Source: Acidobacteriota bacterium
GTDB lineage: Bacteria > Acidobacteriota > Holophagae > Acanthopleuribacterales > Acanthopleuribacteraceae
NCBI GenBank assembly: GCA_030066195.1
Contig: JASJCB010000100.1
Span: 1-64,000 of the forward strand
Direction of reading: 5' to 3'
DNA length: 64,000 bases
The position numbers and the translations under genes were made by a program. The notes beneath the pieces are model-generated. The model ran no database searches. It was not told the origin of the DNA and worked only from the letters and a program-made list of their open reading frames with translations. This document shows, piece after piece, positions 9,142 through 46,647 of the stretch (its first letter is position 1; every line of letters starts with the position of its first letter).

Positions 9142-11424
9142 TTGAGATATCTATGTTGCATCTGCCTGCTGATCACGCTGAGTTGCGTGCCTAATAAGAA
9201 AGAAATGAAGCTGGCCGCCAAAGCCACGGACGCGGGTCGTTGGACCGAGGCATACGAGCGTTGGAGCGGGATTCTGGAGGAGCATCCCGACAACGTCAAG
9301 GCCAAGCTGGAAAAAGAACGCGCCCGCATGAACGCTTCCCTGTACCATCTGGACCGCGCCGGCCGTTTCTACCGCGCCAAGAAGTACAACGAGACCCTGT
9401 TCGAACTGAACCTGGCTTTGGGTTTCGACCCGGACAACCAGGAAGGTCAACGCCTGCTGCGCAACGCCATGGAGAAGCGCAAAGAGCAGGAAGCAATTGC
9501 CGCGGGCAAGAAGGTCCAACAGAAGAAGAAAGGCATCACGGTGCCGCGCCTGCGCCCGTCCACCTGGGACCCTCAAAACCTGAGCTTCACCAATAAGTCC
9601 ATCCGCGACGTCTACACCAGCATGGGCCGCGCCTACGGCATCAATATCGTCCTGGACAGTAAGATCCGCGATGACAAGACCACCATCGACCTGCGCAACC
9701 TCAGCTTCATCCGCGCCCTGGATACGCTGATGGTGGTCAACCGACATTTCTTCAAGGTGATCGACAACAACACCATCATCATCATGGAAGACAACAATAA
9801 AACCCGCGAACAACACCAGAACCAGATCATTCGCACCTTCTACCTGTCCAACATCACCCCCAAGGACCTGAAGCAGCACCTGCGCCAGTTGGGCAATATC
9901 AAGGAATTCGCCGAAAACGAACGCCTGAACGCGGTCACCATCAAGGGCTCCGCCGAGCAAATGGCCCTGGCCGAGAAGATTATTCGCGACAACGATAAAT
10001 CGCGGCCGGAAGTCATCGTGGAAATCGAGTTCCTGGAGGTCAACAAGAACCTCTCGCGGCGCGTCGGCATTCAACCCACCGACAACAGCGGCAACGCCCT
10101 CTACCGCGCCGGGGTGATTGCCGACCCGGTGGGCCGTTCCAACAGCGACGAGGACAGGGGCGGCATTCGCGGTATCTTCCCCAGCCTGGACGAACAGGAT
10201 TTCCTGACCATCGTCCCCGCCCTGGCCATTGACTTCCTGAAAGACCAGGGCGATTCCCGCCAGGTGGCCAATCCGCACCTGCGCATAACTTCGGGCGAGA
10301 AGGGCGAGATTCGCATCGGCCAGAGCGTGCCCGTGGTCAATACCTCGTTCACCACCTCCGGCCTTTCGGGCAGTACCTCGGGCACCAACGCCTTCGGCGA
10401 TCAGGCCCTGACCTCCTTCAACTACCAGGAAGTGGGCATCGACATGAAGATCACGCCGCGTGTGCACTACAACAACGAGATCTCGCTGGAACTTGAGATG
10501 GAGATCAGTTCGGTGCTGAGCGCCGGTTTGCAGCCCATCTTCGGCAAGCGCCAGGTGACTACCAGCCTGCGTTTGAAGAACGGCGAGATGAACGTGCTGG
10601 CCGGCTTGCTCAGCGAGGACGAACGCCGCTCGCTGGTGGGCATCGCCGGTCTCTCCGATATTCCCATCCTGGGCAAGTTGTTCACCAACGACGAGAAGGT
10701 GGCCTCCAAGACCGACATCATCATGACCATCAAACCGGTCATCATTCGTGGACCCGATATCGGCGAGGCGGACCGCGCGCCCTATGAAATCTCCTCCCTG
10801 CGCCTGTCCTCCCTCTACAGCGAGGAGGGACTGGCCGCCGAAAGCGAGAAACCCGGCGAAAGCGACGCCGCGCCCGAGCCCGACATGACCGAACCCGCCT
10901 ACGAGGAAGACCCGGCGCCCGATGAAGCGGAACCCGAGCCGGATGAAGGCTCTACCGAAACCATCGACCCGGAAGAGGATTATCCCGAGGAAGAAGAGGA
11001 AGGACCCCCGCCCGCCATGCTGGCCTTTACACCCGCCAACCAGGAGGGCAGACAAGACGATATGATCGAGTTCAGCGTCTTCATCACCAACGTGGAAGGC
11101 ATGAGCCGCGGCGAGGTGACGGTGTCTTTCGACGCCTCGATCTTGCAGGCGGAAGCGGTGGAAATGGGCGACTTCTTCGGCAGCGGACGCCGACCCCACC
11201 TGACGCCCGCCTGGAACAACGATCAAGGCAATATCAGCATGATCATTACCCAGCGCATGGGCGGCGAACCCTTCTCCGGTTCCGGCATCCTGGCCACCTT
11301 GCGCTTCCGCGCCAAATCACCGGGTTCCGGCGAACTGACCTTCCGCAACCCGGTACTCAAGAAGAAGGACGGCGCCCTGATCCCGGTCCAAGGCCTGCCC
11401 GCCATGTACGAGGTGAACCCATGA
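9142..11424 (+). CDS. gspD: Secretin with C-terminal cohesin-like domain
   Basis: A 760-residue outer-membrane secretin starting at TTG 9142 behind GGGAG. The N-terminus (Cys15) looks like a possible lipoprotein signal. TPR-like helices occupy about 25-115, secretin N domains about 145-300 (NIVLDSKIRDDKTTIDLR; NERLNAVTIKGS), and the secretin core about 305-550 with VPVV, YQEVGIDMKITPRV and GLLSEDE. An acidic Pro/Glu linker (about 560-620) leads to a domain at about 622-758 with FSVFITNVEGMSRGEVTVSF and GILATLRFRAKSPGSG, which resembles cohesin. That C-terminal addition is unusual for a pore-forming secretin. Confidence 0.9.
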   Translation: MRYLCCICLLITLSCVPNKKEMKLAAKATDAGRWTEAYERWSGILEEHPDNVKAKLEKERARMNASLYHLDRAGRFYRAKKYNETLFELNLALGFDPDNQEGQRLLRNAMEKRKEQEAIAAGKKVQQKKKGITVPRLRPSTWDPQNLSFTNKSIRDVYTSMGRAYGINIVLDSKIRDDKTTIDLRNLSFIRALDTLMVVNRHFFKVIDNNTIIIMEDNNKTREQHQNQIIRTFYLSNITPKDLKQHLRQLGNIKEFAENERLNAVTIKGSAEQMALAEKIIRDNDKSRPEVIVEIEFLEVNKNLSRRVGIQPTDNSGNALYRAGVIADPVGRSNSDEDRGGIRGIFPSLDEQDFLTIVPALAIDFLKDQGDSRQVANPHLRITSGEKGEIRIGQSVPVVNTSFTTSGLSGSTSGTNAFGDQALTSFNYQEVGIDMKITPRVHYNNEISLELEMEISSVLSAGLQPIFGKRQVTTSLRLKNGEMNVLAGLLSEDERRSLVGIAGLSDIPILGKLFTNDEKVASKTDIIMTIKPVIIRGPDIGEADRAPYEISSLRLSSLYSEEGLAAESEKPGESDAAPEPDMTEPAYEEDPAPDEAEPEPDEGSTETIDPEEDYPEEEEEGPPPAMLAFTPANQEGRQDDMIEFSVFITNVEGMSRGEVTVSFDASILQAEAVEMGDFFGSGRRPHLTPAWNNDQGNISMIITQRMGGEPFSGSGILATLRFRAKSPGSGELTFRNPVLKKKDGALIPVQGLPAMYEVNP

Positions 11425-11960
11425 AAATCCTGGGCGCGCACGCATCCTGCGTGCATCCGGCCGGCGTCGACAGAACCCCACGGTTCGTCACTGCCGCACG
11501 TTCTTCTGACAAACGCGGCTTCACCCTCCTGGAACTGGTCATCGCCATGGTGCTCCTGGGCATCCTGGCCGCTGCCGCGGTACCCACCACCCGCAAACTG
11601 GTCAAACGCCAAAAGGAAATCGAACTGAAACGCGCCCTCATGGAAATGCGCGAGGCCATCGACCGCTTCAAACGCGCATCAGACGAAGGCGTGATCGTGG
11701 TGATGGACATCGAGCAACTGGGTTACCCGGCCGACTTTGACGAGTTGATCGAAGGCGCCCAACTCAAAAAGGCCGACAGCAAACGCATGCGCTTCCTGCG
11801 CCGCATCCCGGTCGATCCCATGACCGGCGAGGCGGAATGGGGCATGCGCTCGGTGCAGGACGATTTCGACAGTCAAAGCTGGGGGCGGGAGAACCTGTTC
11901 GATGTATACTCATTGAGTGACGGCACCGCCTTGGACGGAACGGAGTACGCGGAATGGTAA
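11421..11960 (+). CDS. GspG-like pseudopilin with unusually long leader
   Basis: A 179-residue pseudopilin with the class III signal KRG-FTLLELVIAMVLLGIL, where Glu at +5 and the hydrophobic helix are intact. The C-terminal part (RRIPVDPMTGEAEWG) matches GspG-type pseudopilins. The leader before the cleavage Gly is about 33 residues, far longer than usual, and its first part (bases 11430-11460) contains an inverted repeat and encodes a Cys/His-rich stretch that looks repeat-derived. No better start is visible; the ATG overlaps the secretin stop. Probably processed by a prepilin peptidase encoded elsewhere. Confidence 0.85.
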   Translation: MKILGAHASCVHPAGVDRTPRFVTAARSSDKRGFTLLELVIAMVLLGILAAAAVPTTRKLVKRQKEIELKRALMEMREAIDRFKRASDEGVIVVMDIEQLGYPADFDELIEGAQLKKADSKRMRFLRRIPVDPMTGEAEWGMRSVQDDFDSQSWGRENLFDVYSLSDGTALDGTEYAEW

Positions 11961-38467: not shown

Positions 38468-40003
38468 ATGCGAAAATCGGCGTTCGGCAGAGCTTGGGAG
38501 AGTGCGTTTCTGGCCCGGGACCTGCGGCGAATGACCGGGAGTGATAATGAAGAGATTCGAGCCCGGGCGCGGCAACATGTGGCCGAGCGCATGGGACGTC
38601 TGCGTGGGTTGCCGCAGAAGTTGGGGCAGACCCTCAGCATGTCCGGCGACCCCGACAAGGCCGAGACCTTCGAGCCCTTGACCGAACACGGCAGCGCCAT
38701 GAGCTTCGGGGAAGTGACCGCTGCCTTGAGTCGAGAATGGGGCAAACCCTGGGATTTCGTGTTGGCTGAGTTGGAGCCGGAAGGACTTTCCGCATCACTG
38801 GGCCAGGTACATAAGGGCCGCTTGCAGGATGGTCGCGAAGTGGCCGTGAAAGTGGCTTATCCCGGCATTCGGGAGGCCGTGTTGAACGATCTCAAGGTGT
38901 TGGGATGGGTTGGCAGACCAAGTCAACACTTCGTCGCCGGTTTCAACTTCGACAATTACCGGGACATGATTCTGAACGACCTGGAAGAAGAGTTGGACTA
39001 TCACACCGAAATGGCCAACCAGAAGGACTATGCGGCCCGCATTGCCAATAACGACCCGCTGGTGGTGCCCGCCTGTGTGGAAGAGTTGGTCACCGCCAAT
39101 GTGTTGGTCACCGAATGGGAGTCCGGGCTCCCGCTCTCAACCGCCGTTACCTGGCCGTTGGAGGCGCGGGAGCGATTGGCTCGGATCCTGGTCGGTCACT
39201 TCCTCAATATGTTCTTTCGACACGGCATCATTCACGCGGACCCGCATCAGGGCAACTACCGCTTTCGCGCCGGTAGGGAGGGGGTTCGAATCGTGCTCTA
39301 CGATTACGGTTCCGTGGCCCGTTTCGATCGTGAGACACGTCTCTTATTGTTACGGCTCATCATGGCCACCCGGAAGCAGGCGGGCGATCCCTTCCGAATT
39401 CTCTGCGCCCTGGGCTTCAACCGGGAATTACTGACGCCCGTCCGTTCCAAGCTGCCCGCGCTTTGCCAGGTGCTGTTCGAACCTTTTCTCAGTCCCATGA
39501 AATTCGATTCGGGAAGTTGGAACCGGCGCGAACGCATCGGCGATATTTTGGGTGAGGATCGCTGGAACTTCCGCCTGAGCGGACCCGCCTCGTTGGTTTT
39601 CCTGATTCGCGGCTTCCAGGGCATGCTTTATTATCTGCGCAAGTTGAACGCAGCCGTCTCCTGGCAATTGTTACTGGAACCGCTGTTGAAGCGCTATACC
39701 GCCGATATGATGACCCAAAAACTGCCGGCCGTGGAAGACGGCGCCTGCCGTTTTGAAACCATGGCGCGCTACCTGCACATCGAGATGCTGGAGGCGGGTC
39801 AAAAGAAGGTGGGTCTGCGTTTCCCGGCTTCCTCGGTAGAGCGTTTGGAAGCCCTGATGGGTGACGACATCGCGGCGAAGGTGCGGCGGAAGGGTATCGA
39901 CCCGGATGAAGTCATTCGGCAGGCGCGACGCTCCGGTTACGCGCCCGCCGAACTTTTTCGGCTTGAAGAAAAGGAAAAACTGGTGCGGATTCGGCTGGCC
40001 TGA
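38468..40003 (+). CDS. ABC1/UbiB family atypical kinase
   Basis: A 511-residue protein-kinase-like member of the ABC1/ADCK/UbiB family. Diagnostic motifs are present: the KxGQ helix LPQKLGQTLSM, the Ala-rich loop replacement SASLGQVHKGRL, the lysine strand VAVKVAYPGI, catalytic GIIHADPHQGNY and metal-binding LYDYGSVARF. UbiB-type proteins support isoprenoid-quinone biosynthesis as ATPases. No C-terminal membrane helices, unlike UbiB proper. GAGGT precedes the ATG. Convergent with the chemotaxis operon. Confidence 0.9.
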   Translation: MRKSAFGRAWESAFLARDLRRMTGSDNEEIRARARQHVAERMGRLRGLPQKLGQTLSMSGDPDKAETFEPLTEHGSAMSFGEVTAALSREWGKPWDFVLAELEPEGLSASLGQVHKGRLQDGREVAVKVAYPGIREAVLNDLKVLGWVGRPSQHFVAGFNFDNYRDMILNDLEEELDYHTEMANQKDYAARIANNDPLVVPACVEELVTANVLVTEWESGLPLSTAVTWPLEARERLARILVGHFLNMFFRHGIIHADPHQGNYRFRAGREGVRIVLYDYGSVARFDRETRLLLLRLIMATRKQAGDPFRILCALGFNRELLTPVRSKLPALCQVLFEPFLSPMKFDSGSWNRRERIGDILGEDRWNFRLSGPASLVFLIRGFQGMLYYLRKLNAAVSWQLLLEPLLKRYTADMMTQKLPAVEDGACRFETMARYLHIEMLEAGQKKVGLRFPASSVERLEALMGDDIAAKVRRKGIDPDEVIRQARRSGYAPAELFRLEEKEKLVRIRLA

Positions 40004-40033: not shown

Positions 40034-43000
40034 TCAGTATTTACCGAATTCGTCGTCATCCAACGAAATGATTTGCGTGGGATCGACGCTGGAGCCGGGA
40101 TGGTCCATGATGTTACCGGAGGGTTCCGGCATACCCATATTCATGCCCATGCCCATGTTCATGGGTTGCGGCGCCGGAGCGGGTCGCGGCGCCGGGACCG
40201 AGCCCATACCGGGGGCGCCCAGGCCGCCGGCGGCCATACCGCCCATACCGTGCTGCTCCATAAAGCGTTGGAAGGCGGCCATCATTTCCGGGGGGAGCCC
40301 GCCCTGGCCGCCGACCTGCTGTTTCTCCTTGAGGGTGAACCGGGTCAGCATCTCCATCAGCTTGTTGGCCTGGCTGCTGAGCTCCTGGCTGGCCGCGGCG
40401 CTTTGCTCTGCGTTGGCCGTGTTTTGCTGAGTGACCTGGTCCATCTGGCCCAGCGCCTTGTTGGCCTGAGCGATGCCCTGCGCCTGCTCGTTACTGGCCG
40501 CGGCGATCTCCGCAACAAGATCGGTTACCTTGCCGATGCCCTGCACGATTTCGTTAAGCGCGTCGGCGGTTTTACCCGCGATGTTACTGCCCTGGTTCAC
40601 CTTCTGGATGGATTCCTCGATGAGCTGGGTGGTTTCCTTGGCGGCATTGGCGCTGCGCGCGGCCAGGTTGCGTACTTCCTCGGCCACTACGGCAAATCCC
40701 TTACCGTGTACACCGGCCCGGGCGGCTTCGACCGCCGCGTTCAAGGCCAGCAGGTTGGTTTGGAAGGCGATTTCGTCGATCACCTTGATGATCTTGGAAA
40801 TATTGGAGCTGGACTCGTCGATGGCCCGCATGCTGACCAACATCTGCTGCATTTGTTCGTTGCCGTTTTCGGCGCCCTTGCGGCACTGAACGGCCAGTTG
40901 ATTGGCCTGGGTCGCGTTCTCGGCGTTTTGTTTGGTTTGGGCGGCCATCTCGGTCATGGAAGCGGTGATTTCCTCCAAGGCGCTGGCCTGCTCGGTGGCG
41001 CCCTGTGACAGGGATTGCGACGCATCGGAGACCTGGCGGGCGCCGGTATTCACCTGGCTGGAAACCTGACGAACCTCGGACAGAATATCGTTCAGGCCGT
41101 CCAGGGTTTGATTGAGCGCTTCCTTCAAGACGGCGTGATCACCCTCGTAGGAGCCCGATACGTAGCTGGTCAGGTCGCCGTGCGACACGCCCTGCAAACT
41201 GGTCTTCAGTTCCGTGATGGGCGCCACGATGGCGTCGATAATGTTGTTGATACCCTGCATCATGGGTTGGTAGGCATCGGAAAGCGAGCTCAGATTGCCG
41301 CGTTTCTTTAAATCGCCGCCGGTGGCTGCCTGAATGACGAGGTTGACTTCGTCGCGGTAAACCGCTCTATCGTTATAGTCGATCCACTCGACCGCGTTAC
41401 CGATGACCTCGCCGTTTTCATCATAGAGCGCGGTAGCATTGAGGCCGAACTCCAGACCGGCCACGGTGATTTCCGCCTTGTGAGGCAGGTTACGGGGATC
41501 GCTGAGAAGGCTTCTTTGCTTAGCAGGGTCGATATGGAAATCGTCGATGCAGGCGCCGACCAGGCGGCTGGGATCGAAACCCGGGAAGGTTTCGGCCAGC
41601 TTGGCCCGGTAAGTGGTCAACAGGTTGACCACCGCGGGGTTGCAGTAGGTGATCCTCAAGTCCCTGTCGCACATCATCAGGTTGGTGGCGGCGTTCTCGA
41701 TCATCGATTCCAAGGCGGTTACGCGGGTAGCCTTGGCGCGTGCTTCCGTGACGTCGTCCCATTCCAGGTTGTTGCCGATATAGTTGCCGTCGCCGTCGCG
41801 CATGGCGGTGACGTTCAGCGAGAAGGTGAGCGGGCCCACGTGGATATCGGCCTGATAGGGCAGGTTGTTGGGGTCGCTGAGCAGGTTGCGTTGATGCGCG
41901 GGGTTTTTATGGAAGCGATCCACGCAAGTCCCCACCAGGTCTTCGAGATTGAAGCCGGGGAATTCGCGTTTGAAGGTTTCCAGGTGCCGGCCCATCAGTT
42001 CCCGTACCGCCGGGTTGATGGTGGTGATGATAAGATCGCGGTCCACGGTCATTTGTGCAGTGGCGGAACCCATGACTGCCGAAGTCAGGCGCGCTGCTTC
42101 GTCTTCCTTGGCGCGCTGCTCGGTGACCTGGTACCATTCCAAGGTGTTGCCGATGTAATTGCCGTCTTTATCGCGTAAAGCGTTTACATTCAGCTCAAAG
42201 ATCAGCGGGCCGATGTTGATGTCGGCCTTGTAGGGAAGATTGGCCGGATTGTCCAGGATACGGCGTTGCACCATGGGGTTCTTGTGGAAACGGTCCACGC
42301 AGGTGCCCACCAATTCGTCCGGGTTGAAACCGGGGAAGGCGATTTGGAAAGCCGAGAGGTTCTCGCGGATCATACGCAGGGAAGAGGGGTTGATATAGGT
42401 AATCCTCAGGTCGCGATCCACGGTCATCATGGAAACACCCGCGCCCTCGATAGAAGAGGACAAAAGGGCGGCCTCGTGTTCCCCGGCACGTTGCTCGGTT
42501 ACGTTTTGCCATTCCATTGTGGCACCGACGTAATCGCCCTTATCATTGAAGGAACCGGTTACGTTCAAGGCGAAAGTCAACTCCCCGACGCTTAAATCGG
42601 CCTTGTAGGGCAGATTGTTGGGTTCGGAGAGAATATGCCGCCAGTGCGAGGGGTTTTGATGGAGGATATCCACGCGGGTTCCGATCAGGTTGTCGGGTGA
42701 AAAACCGGGATAGGCGGTTTGGAAAGAGCGGATATGAGTGCGGAAGAGGTCGAAAGCAGCCGTGTTGGCATAGGTCACGATCAGGTCGTGATCTACCGTA
42801 ATGACGGCGGTGGAAGCGCCCTCCAAGGCCCACTTCAGGTTGTCGTCGGTACCGGACACCCGGCTCACCGAGACAACCGCGCCGGTGGGTTCGTCGTCCT
42901 CGTCCAATTGGGGAACCACCCTGAACAACAGTCCGGCTGTCCCGTCGTCCAATTCCAGTTCCACTTCCTGCTCGATGGTCTCGCCCTCACGCAGGGCCTC

Positions 43001-43657
43001 GTCCACCGGGGTGGCGCGGCGCCTGGAATAAAAAGCGCTCCAAGCCTTCTTTCCAACGATCTCATCGGAAGATACTCCAAGTAACGTTTCCGCGGCACGG
43101 TTCCACGCGGTAACCCGGGCGCTGCCGTCTACCGCAAATGCAGCCGTCGGCAGGTCCGCGAACAATCCGGCAAAGATGCCGTTGTCCTGTTGGTTCGTCA
43201 TTCCAGCCTCCTTAACTTCTTCTTCCTTGTTACCACTTTCTTTGGAACGCTCTTCATAACCTTCCAGGAAGGTGCGGGCCACAAAACCGAGCGCGTTGTT
43301 CCAGGCCGTTTCCAAGGCTTCATTCCATGTGCTGCCGGCGTATTCACGCATGGCGGCGACCAGGGTACGGGCAACGACATCGTAGTGAGCCGGCTCGACG
43401 CCGTAGTTCTGATGCCGTTTGCCCATGTTCTTCAATGCGGGGATCAGACGGTCGGGATTTTCCAGGTTTTCCACCAGGAATACCAGAGAGGCCAACAATT
43501 GTTTTTCTTGCAAGGACATGTCGACATTGACGAATATCGCCTTGACCTCGGGATGATCCCGAAACAGGGTTTCATAAAAGCTATGAATCAATTCGGCGCC
43601 GCGTGGGGCCAGCGCAGCAAAACTGTCGCGCAAGAGAGGAACATTGATATCGGCCAT
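40034..43657 (-). CDS. Soluble chemoreceptor: globin-PAS x5-MCP fusion
   Basis: A 1207-residue receptor without membrane segments. Residues 1-140 are a flavohaemoglobin-type globin: Tyr28 (B10) in SFYETLF, Gln53 (E7) and proximal His82 in [22 protein letters not shown] domain (about 163-270) precedes four closely similar PAS domains (about 276-390, 392-515, 522-640, 646-760), each with FPGF.P..LVG and a LPYKADI..G.L.F.LNV core. A HAMP-like linker (about 780-830) and an MCP domain follow, with the hairpin tip [21 protein letters not shown] near 956. The tail is Met/Gly/Pro-rich. Third gene after cheA-cheW. Confidence 0.9.
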
Positions 43658-44186: not shown

Positions 44187-46544
44187 TTAAGTTGTGATTT
44201 CCGGAAGCTCCCAATCGAACTTCAAGAAGTTATCGACCAACCCCTGAATATCGAGAATCAAACTGATATCCCCGTTGCTGAGGATGGAGGTTCCCGAAAT
44301 GCCGCGTACATTGCCGAAGAAACCGCCCAAACCCTTGATCACGGTTTGGTACTGACCCAAAATCTCATCGGCAAACAGACAGAATTTCCGCGTATCGTGT
44401 TCGACCACGATGAGAATGCCCTCGGTAAGATCCTCGAAATCGGAGGCGGTGTTGAAGAGACTGTGCAACCGGATCACGGGCACCAATTCCTTGCGGATGC
44501 GCACCAACTCGCTGCCGTCGATGGTTTTGGAGATGGCGTCGTGGGTGGTCTTGATCGATTCGCGAATAGACAGCAGCGGCACCGTAAACAGCTGAACGCC
44601 GACCCGGACCAACATGCCCTCGATAATAGCCAGCGTGAGCGGAATGCGAATGGTGAAGTTAGTGCCCTTTCCCGGTTTACTTGAAATGTGAACGCGGCCC
44701 TTGATGGCGTCGATATTCTTCTTGACGACATCCATACCGACGCCGCGTCCCGAAATATCGGTGACCTGTTCAGCGGTGGAGAAGCCGGCCTCGAAGATGA
44801 GGTTGAAAATCTCGCTTTCGTTTTTGAACTCGTGATCGTGAGGGACCAGACCGCGTTCGATCGCTTTGTTCTTGATCTTCTGATGATCGATGCCCTTGCC
44901 GTCATCCTTGATCTCGATGACGACTTCACCCCCCTCGTGGAAGGCGCGCAGGTTGATGATGCCGGTGCGATCCTTGCCCGCGGCTTCGCGTTCCGCCGGC
45001 GACTCGATGCCGTGGTCGATGCCGTTGCGAATGATGTGCAACAGGGGATTGGCCAGGTTCTCGACAACGCTTTTGTCGATTTCGGTATCCTCGCCTTCCA
45101 TCACCAACTCTACCTGCTTGCCCTGCTTCTGCGACACATCACGCACCACGCGCACCATCTTGTGGAAGGTAGCCTCGATAGGCACCATGCGCAGGCTCAT
45201 GGATATGTCCTGCAATTCACGCGATATGCGGTTGAGTTGGAGAGCCGCCTTTTTGAAGTTGGGCAGATCGTAATCGTCCAAGTCGGGGTTGTGGGTGACG
45301 GTGTTCTCGGCAATGATCAGCTCGCCGACCAGGTTCATCAGGGCGTCCAGCTTGTAAAGGTCCACGCGAATGTTCTGAGCGGAAGACCGGCGCTTGACAT
45401 TGGATTCCGCGGTCGTGGCACGGCGTTCGTTTTGAACATTCAGGGCCTGGTCCAATTCTTCCCGTTGCACCGATCCCATATCGGCCAGGATCTCGCCGAT
45501 AGGTTGGGATTGCTTTTGAAGCGCGTGATCCAGTTCCTCGGGCTCGATGACGCCCATTTCCAAGAGGATTTCACCCACCAGTGTTGCATTTCCCTCGCCG
45601 CTCTTGGGTTTAAGGTGACCCACCTGGCCGTGTTTCACGTATTCGGTGAGCATGTTCAGGTAGGTATCGAAACCCTCTACCTTGCCGCCGCCCTCCGGTA
45701 ATTCATGCACCGCTGACTTGAGCGCATCCAGTACCTTCAACATGAGGGTAATGCCCTGGCGCTCTACCTTTTTCTTGCCGCTCTTGAAGTCTTCGAGAAT
45801 GGTTTCGAACTCGTGACCCAACTTTTCCAACTGGTTGAAGTTGAACAGGCCGGAGTTGCCTTTGAAAGTGTGAATACCCCTGAAGGCGTTGTCCAGTGAC
45901 TCCTTGTCGTTGAGGTTCTTTTCCAGGCCCAACAGGCTGGATTCCGCGGCTTCCAGATGTTCCTCGGCCTCCATGATGTAGGCGCCGACCATTTCATCGG
46001 TAATGGTGATCTGGAAGCTTTCGAATTCGTCGACCGGCTCGGCAAATGCCGGTTCGAGTTCAGGTTCCGGTTCGGGTTCAGGTTCCGGTTCGAGTTCCGG
46101 TTCAGGCTCCCTCTCGGGCTCCGGTTCGCTTTCTGCCGCCGTATCACCTTCAAGGGCGTCGGTCACTTTTTGGACAGCCGCCTCTGCATCTTCGATCTTA
46201 CCGGATTCGGACAATTGAGCTACGAACCCATAGAGACATTCAACGGCAACCTTCATCACACGGGCTTCGTGTTCTCCCGGCAAAACACTGTCCAGCAGGC
46301 TCTCGACGAAATCCTGCATCAAGACCGCAACTCGATAGACGGGATCCAGGCCCAGAAACTCCGCACTGCCCTTAATGGCTTGGAAGTTCTGGGCAATGCC
46401 GCTGATCAGGGAGCTGCCCGGATCCTGCCGGCGGCGGATGTGATCCTCAAGCGTTTCTTTTTGCTGGTGGATTTCGTCGAGAATATCTTTGCAATCTTGC
46501 GCAAACTCAGCAATGAATTCCGCGTTGTCGGAAAAACTATTCAT
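44187..46544 (-). CDS. cheA: Chemotaxis histidine kinase CheA
   Basis: A 785-residue CheA from the ATG at 46544 (a TTG lies upstream at 46580). The first Hpt-like domain (about 1-110) has lost its His (NFQAIKGSAEFLGL). A Glu/Pro linker repeats P-E-P-E. The second Hpt (about 185-290) has His225 in FRGIHTFKG. Residues about 315-375 hold two VGEILLEMGVIEPEELDHAL-like repeats that resemble MshEN/T2SE_N units. Dimerisation, ATPase (NPLLHIIRNGIDHGIES; DDGKGI; GRGVGMDVV) and CheW-like domains follow. No CheY, CheB or CheR nearby. Confidence 0.95.
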   Translation of the reverse strand: MNSFSDNAEFIAEFAQDCKDILDEIHQQKETLEDHIRRRQDPGSSLISGIAQNFQAIKGSAEFLGLDPVYRVAVLMQDFVESLLDSVLPGEHEARVMKVAVECLYGFVAQLSESGKIEDAEAAVQKVTDALEGDTAAESEPEPEREPEPELEPEPEPEPEPELEPAFAEPVDEFESFQITITDEMVGAYIMEAEEHLEAAESSLLGLEKNLNDKESLDNAFRGIHTFKGNSGLFNFNQLEKLGHEFETILEDFKSGKKKVERQGITLMLKVLDALKSAVHELPEGGGKVEGFDTYLNMLTEYVKHGQVGHLKPKSGEGNATLVGEILLEMGVIEPEELDHALQKQSQPIGEILADMGSVQREELDQALNVQNERRATTAESNVKRRSSAQNIRVDLYKLDALMNLVGELIIAENTVTHNPDLDDYDLPNFKKAALQLNRISRELQDISMSLRMVPIEATFHKMVRVVRDVSQKQGKQVELVMEGEDTEIDKSVVENLANPLLHIIRNGIDHGIESPAEREAAGKDRTGIINLRAFHEGGEVVIEIKDDGKGIDHQKIKNKAIERGLVPHDHEFKNESEIFNLIFEAGFSTAEQVTDISGRGVGMDVVKKNIDAIKGRVHISSKPGKGTNFTIRIPLTLAIIEGMLVRVGVQLFTVPLLSIRESIKTTHDAISKTIDGSELVRIRKELVPVIRLHSLFNTASDFEDLTEGILIVVEHDTRKFCLFADEILGQYQTVIKGLGGFFGNVRGISGTSILSNGDISLILDIQGLVDNFLKFDWELPEITT

Positions 46545-46647
46545 AGTGGTGGATTTCTCGTCGGAATGATGAGGCGTCAACAGTCACGGTTGCATTTTGG
46601 TTATCGGCATTGGTACCGTTCTCTTGAGGTACTGAGTCAAAAATATA

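Follow-up and report, generated by a model that had tools for sequence, protein, structure and literature searches.

Genes and domains of the locus

The window (the whole stretch of 64,000 nucleotides that was analysed) carries a chemotaxis gene cluster in the order cheA, cheW, receptor, all on the minus strand, with the receptor ATG located one base past the cheW stop codon. The first-pass annotation had placed the receptor gene at 40034-43657 and named CheA as its operon partner, and both the coordinates and the gene order were confirmed. The features are as follows.

40034-43657, minus strand: whole receptor gene, 1207 aa, encoding globin, generic PAS, four Aer2-type PAS, HAMP, MCP signalling domain and tail (ORF, Pfam, NCBIfam NF041847)
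43223-43657, minus strand: F-type globin, residues 1-145 (PF00042, match to PDB 3s1i, AlphaFold model, Foldseek)
43207-43213, minus strand: internal Shine-Dalgarno-like AAGGAGG, 5 nt before the internal ATG (anti-SD dG -12.1 versus -8.3 at the gene's own start)
43199-43201, minus strand: in-frame ATG inside the gene (Met153), a proposed second start that coincides with the start of the globin-less orthologues
42842-43186, minus strand: generic PAS1, residues 158-272, without the Aer2 haem His (PAS_4 at 168-267, E 1.8e-26); also in globin-less orthologues
42470-42841, minus strand: Aer2-type PAS2, His333 and Trp383 (alignment of Aer2-type copies)
42095-42469, minus strand: Aer2-type PAS3, His458 and Trp508 (same alignment)
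41720-42094, minus strand: Aer2-type PAS4, His583 and Trp633 (same alignment)
41345-41719, minus strand: Aer2-type PAS5, His708 and Trp758 (same alignment; best copy for PDB 6ceq, 3vol and 4hi4)
41072-41344, minus strand: HAMP region (PF18947 HAMP_2 at residues 795-856, the one HAMP found by Pfam)
40316-41071, minus strand: MCP signalling domain (PF00015; NF011622, residues 806-1112 versus profile 212-518 with no net gap)
40037-40051, minus strand: C-terminal EFGKY, fitting the CheR tether pattern x-[HFYW]-x2-[HFYW] (pattern from PMC7184735)
43659-44174, minus strand: cheW (PF01584, E 5.7e-38)
44187-46580, minus strand: cheA, with two Hpt stretches and an MshEN-like motif (profile searches)
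38468-40003, plus strand: ABC1 (UbiB/COQ8-type) kinase-like gene, convergent with the receptor gene (PF03109, E 1.7e-50)

The MCP signalling part, previously judged intact, was recovered with Pfam as MCPsignal at residues 920-1076 (E 1.5e-54). The length of the signalling domain equals that of the E. coli Tar and Tap profiles with no net change, from which we infer the 36H class. Read from the sequence, the HAMP region probably comprises two HAMPs. The body scored 1056.3 bits with NF041847, the Vibrio Aer2 equivalog, the best stretch being residues 410-1112; this is under the cut-off of 1200 and places the receptor as related to, and outside of, the equivalog. The EFGKY tail agrees with the C-terminal pentapeptide that is among the criteria for an Aer2-like body as given in PMC7184735. 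The highest mean hydropathy over 19 residues (Kyte-Doolittle) was 1.22, revealing no hydrophobic stretch and indicating, by hydropathy alone, a cytoplasmic receptor.

The genome of the window (G000, 11.6 Mb) contains 14 MCPsignal matches, two of which share one frame, and four CheR matches, none of them on the window's own contig. A second MCP of this genome (L042 1758-4925, contig C233) also carries five PAS domains, but these are of the HHR(M/L)F and not the Aer2 type. The window CheA (44187-46580) contains an MshEN-related c-di-GMP motif between the Hpt and dimerisation domains (NF053729, 41.7 bits, cut-off 38), from which the Arg of the usual motif is presumably absent.

Globin and PAS domains

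The N-terminal domain had been proposed to be a flavohaemoglobin-type globin, in agreement with the match to PF00042 over residues 26-127 (E 9e-14; 52.4 bits, cut-off 22). This is the main globin match, the score with PF01152 (Bac_globin) being 20.5 bits, under the cut-off of 21. The PDB search matched the first 144 residues to Hell's Gate globin I (HGbI; 3s1i, E 5.5e-21), flavohaemoglobins and Vitreoscilla haemoglobin. The residues that characterize F-type globins, Tyr B10, Gln E7 and His F8, are present as Tyr28, Gln50 and His82, the proximal His. Tyr28 aligns with HGbI Tyr29(B10), and Gln50, which lies 32 residues before His82, aligns with HGbI Gln50(E7); the residue identities of HGbI, including E7, are those described in PMC4476040 and PMC11203436. 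Thus, Tyr28 and His82 of the haem pocket originally read as Tyr28, Gln53 and His82 occupy haem positions, and the distal Gln is Gln50 and not Gln53. Residue 53 is Gln in the window, Lys in HGbI and His in the SAR324 homologue, in which the haem residues, Gln50 included, are kept. The AlphaFold model was that of a well-formed globin (pLDDT 90), for which 3s1i was the best Foldseek hit (VIA Z 20.8, rmsd 1.5 over 131 residues), although the fold match alone cannot choose the subfamily because a fish cytoglobin scored within one Z unit of 3s1i. Membership in the protoglobin/HemAT family was rejected, with no PF11563 match at E 0.01 or better and PF00042 found instead. By its sequence the globin is F-type (flavohaemoglobin family) and best matched by HGbI, a protein with very high O2 affinity as reported in PMC4476040.

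The five PAS domains counted earlier were recovered as one generic PAS_4 (residues 168-267) and four Aer2-type domains over residues 272-771 that repeat every 125 residues. The generic PAS1 (158-272) is, by the Aer2 His motif, no haem candidate. The closest PDB chains to PAS2-5 are Aer2 PAS-haem domains of V. cholerae (6ceq) and P. aeruginosa (3vol and 4hi4). An alignment was made of 26 Aer2-type copies from seven proteins: the window (4), the SAR324 homologue (5), the further SAR324 protein G440 (2), the same-family receptors G002 (5), G004 (3) and G006 (3), and Vibrio (4). The haem His was present in 26 of 26 copies, as was the Trp, and all four window copies keep both. Both residues are also found in P. 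aeruginosa Aer2 (3vol), 49 residues apart, a spacing that we take to be the H234-W283 distance; the Trp, presumably W283, is assumed to have a role in the Aer2 PAS-haem family. The corresponding position of the 6ceq chain is Leu, and we suspect a mutant construct. The 6ceq chain is V. cholerae Aer2 (PMC8694187); in P. aeruginosa Aer2 the PAS domain binds haem b via the E-eta His H234 (PMC13401364, PMC10468136), and all three PAS domains of V. vulnificus Aer2 bind haem (PMC13401364). Among farther SAR324 homologues outside the 26-copy set, the simple EW/QW match is missing from some copies in L099, L101, L102, L103 and L105, and in L101 and L102 the first PAS is without the His motif.

The first-pass annotation had described the four PAS domains as near-repeats, which was not borne out, the pairwise identity being only 34-58%. 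The PAS alignment it had suggested as a check on tandem duplication ruled out a recent event, PAS4 and PAS5 having separate orthologues in G002, G004 and G006. Since two copies have separate orthologues in related genera, the duplications behind those two are old. Copies A1-A3 of G002 and A2-A4 of the SAR324 homologue look like younger duplicates. The AlphaFold model of the PAS2-5 array was poor (pLDDT 51) and carries no weight in any reading.

The F-type globin, the haem His and Trp kept in PAS2-5 and the Aer2-like body together predict a receptor for oxygen that could carry as many as five haems, held in two unrelated folds. Three other readings of the sensor domains were weighed. Loss of haem from the globin, as in RsbR, has a precedent in the SAR324 homologue G440, which is without the F8 His and B10 Tyr and has a very long branch; with Tyr28, Gln50 and His82 all in place and a well-formed globin model, loss is highly improbable for the window protein, and the non-haem protoglobin or RsbR-like N-terminus foreseen as the alternative was seen in RsbR-like form in G440 and not here. 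That the globin senses or scavenges NO instead of sensing O2 would suit the flavohaemoglobin lineage and the retention of Tyr B10, Gln E7 and Tyr92, the last of which we take to be the G5 position. We consider it unlikely, however, given that the FAD/NAD reductase domain of flavohaemoglobins is absent from the receptor by Pfam search and that at residue 135, aligned with a Glu in the flavohaemoglobin of R. eutropha, the SAR324 homologue has an amino acid other than Glu. Somewhat less doubtful, though still improbable, is that the additional PAS domains serve chiefly to lengthen a tall Aer2-type array, with one or two of them at most acting as sensors. The linear stacking of PAS layers described for Aer2 (F7) arrays (PMC7184735), the variation in Aer2-type copy number from 2 to 5 among the seven proteins with a 125-residue period outside Vibrio, and the unequal signalling roles of the PAS domains in V. 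vulnificus Aer2 (PMC13401364) are consistent with spacers, which nevertheless would not need the His and Trp kept in every aligned copy. The soluble oxygen or NO sensing array proposed earlier fits the predicted receptor as to haem-based gas sensing with its own CheA, and missed the part likely played by the PAS stack, all four Aer2-type copies of which carry the haem His and the Trp.

Homologues of the fusion and the ABC1 neighbour

One fused homologue (L017), from a SAR324 MAG, is a protein of 1314 aa with the same globin and five Aer2-type PAS domains, 47-52% identical to the window receptor and 52% over the whole protein. It is one relative, recovered by a contig scan that misses distant relatives because short peptide patterns were used. 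In G440 (L071 1182-3938; SAR324) a globin showing RsbR-like decay precedes two Aer2-type PAS domains. The nearest same-family receptors (G002, G004 and G006) contain the generic PAS followed by 5, 3 and 3 Aer2-type PAS domains and no globin. The body of the window receptor is 71-72% identical to these three and 58% to SAR324, and a tree built without G440 joins the window and SAR324 globins as sisters (99/99), a grouping that fell to 83/22 with G440 included. Since the body is nearer the same-family receptors and the globin is sister to that of SAR324, the sequences point either to an ancestral globin with repeated loss or decay, or to transfer between lineages.

With the globin as query, the fusion was found in one of the seven same-family genomes (G000-G006) and in two of 52 genomes of the SAR324 phylum (G410, intact; G440, decayed). 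Matches were obtained in 30 of 396 Acidobacteriota genomes; besides the window, five of the listed places had frames of at least 600 aa, and all five were opened: four were not MCPs and the fifth (G111) had the globin in a 170-aa frame, versus the 657 listed. Relatives of G410 gave matches in 11 of 288 genomes and no new MCP fusion among the loci opened (G652, G435, G440 and G410); the G435 match was a helicase and was rejected as a chance match. Relatives of G652, judged to be cyanobacteria by their pentapeptide-repeat partners, gave matches in 149 of 291 genomes, and no MCP was present in 12 opened regions, which cover part of the frames above 600 aa among the stronger, listed matches. The viral contigs contained no globin match, and none of 246 matching plasmid records covered 80% of the query, the best (Vibrio) covering residues 277-764. 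The PAS queries matched in 11 of 52 and 20 of 288 genomes, with no new globin fusion in the subset of loci opened.

Other arrangements of F-type globins were seen in the course of the census. The loci L073-L084, inferred to be cyanobacterial, encode proteins with one to five tandem F-type globins; in many of these proteins a membrane segment and pentapeptide repeats come next. In L037 and L038 (G386) the globin is C-terminal in a protein-kinase, ferredoxin and cyclase-like fusion, as read by eye.

Of 18 loci examined around Aer2-type receptors, the window included, 12 have an ABC1 (PF03109) gene close by, in varied orientation and up to about 5.3 kb away. Of the six loci without one, five are flanked by less than 3 kb per side and G439 by ~4.4 kb. 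No ABC1 gene was found in nine control loci around other MCPs, a weak control because eight of them are only ~4 kb long. Judged by their bit scores and reach, eight PF03109 matches in the genome of the window are full-length ABC1 genes and the rest are short. Proximity by chance looks unlikely. The ABC1 gene beside the L017 receptor is at 10304-11854, and contig C106 of the window's genome has a further MCP/ABC1 pair (MCP match 9688-10179, ABC1 match 10967-11704). The same pairing is described for Corallococcus, with a PAS+Bac_globin+MCP receptor (PMC6194562). A role in ubiquinone synthesis is not the obvious one for ABC1, since menaquinones are described as the major quinones of the relative Sulfidibacter (PMC8841776). 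The recurrent neighbour provides a genetic lead on the role of an orphan UbiB/COQ8-type protein in bacteria.

Putative internal start, proposed mechanism and known receptors

The globin-less orthologues begin with MTEAGG or MNQGSA at the position of Met153. In three of three globin-fused genes an in-frame ATG follows the globin, in the contexts MTNQQDNG (Met153, window), MSNEGTNL (Met187, SAR324) and MTETIDM (Met177, G440), preceded by a near-perfect Shine-Dalgarno sequence, AAGGAGG 5 nt upstream in the window and SAR324 and by AAGGAG 6 nt upstream in G440. The predicted anti-SD binding at the internal sites was -12.1, -11.7 and -8.2 kcal/mol for the window, SAR324 and G440 respectively, and -8.3, -9.1 and -3.5 kcal/mol at the genes' own starts. 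Equally strong sites were found before none of the other in-frame ATGs (0/38, 0/39 and 0/23) and at 2/1201, 5/1308 and 9/891 codon positions. With the protein held fixed and synonymous codons drawn at random, an equally strong site arose in 99, 69 and 28 of 2000 draws, so that the signal is modest by this control (1.4-5% of draws), and the figures for the three genes are not to be multiplied because the genes are related and the site was noticed before testing.

These features suggest a second, globin-free product from Met153 beside the full receptor. The main rival, that the internal site is the fossil start of a globin-less receptor and only the full-length protein is made, is given nearly even odds: the globin-less orthologues start at this very position, and in the codon control such a site arises in 1.4-5% of draws. 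Arguing against a fossil, three genes retain the site although their globins are at most 43% identical and their linkers vary in both length and sequence, and SD-like sites inside genes are described as generally depleted (PMC5100845).

Taken as a whole, an Aer2-like cytoplasmic O2 chemoreceptor with an F-type globin, four PAS-haem domains and probably two products is the reading preferred here, with a probability of about two in three. In this predicted receptor, binding of ligand, mainly O2, to the haems would be transmitted through the PAS stack and HAMP region to the signalling tip and from there, via CheW, to the adjacent CheA, and CheR tethered on the EFGKY tail would tune adaptation. 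The globin shares Tyr B10 and Gln E7 with HGbI and would add sensitivity to low O2, and the PAS haems would serve a higher range. Of these elements, the sequence itself shows the order of the domains, the conserved haem residues, the operon, the tail motif and the internal start signal. The gene would yield the full receptor and a globin-free receptor from Met153. Somewhat short of even odds, and put forward tentatively, is the further proposal that one gene with a conserved internal start encodes two O2 receptors, the long with a high-affinity globin and four PAS haems and the short with PAS haems only, that these form mixed dimers or arrays in which the ratio of start use sets the O2 range, and that the arrangement is common to Acidobacteriota and SAR324. 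If the haems are loaded, the protein would combine as many as five haems of two unrelated folds in a single chemoreceptor chain and offer a natural test of how one kinase sums sensors of unlike affinity. Through the conserved internal start, a single gene could in a simple way supply the receptor both with and without one of its sensors.

The globin-PAS-MCP combination for which the first-pass annotation had recommended a search is not new, since seven PAS+Bac_globin+MCP proteins in 8,075 genomes are described in PMC6194562. Literature searches for an F-type globin, four haem-type PAS domains and a conserved internal start in such a receptor found none, the nearest being PMC6194562. The receptors described there (Corallococcus Cc_4972 and six others) share with the window a cytosolic globin and PAS chemoreceptor, the CheA-CheW-MCP order and the ABC1 neighbour; they are reported with PF01152, whereas the main match of the window globin is PF00042, a comparison that rests on the published description. 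HemAT and other globin-coupled sensors likewise have an N-terminal globin on a soluble MCP, but that of HemAT is a protoglobin (PF11563) with no PAS stack. HGbRL of Methylacidiphilum, an F-type globin joined to Roadblock, also has an F-type globin as putative sensor domain, but differs in its output domain and is a site-swapped dimer. The Aer2 receptors of P. aeruginosa, V. cholerae and V. vulnificus (36H, F7) have in common with the window receptor the PAS-haem type with His and Trp, the HAMP, the signalling domain of Tar length, the CheR-tether pentapeptide, the cytoplasmic location and the CheA/CheW partners. The window receptor differs from them in the added F-type globin and generic PAS, in its four haem-type PAS domains and in scoring below the Vibrio equivalog cut-off. 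On these sequence comparisons the receptor is real and unusual, and the most fitting description is that of an Aer2-like receptor to which an F-type globin has been added.
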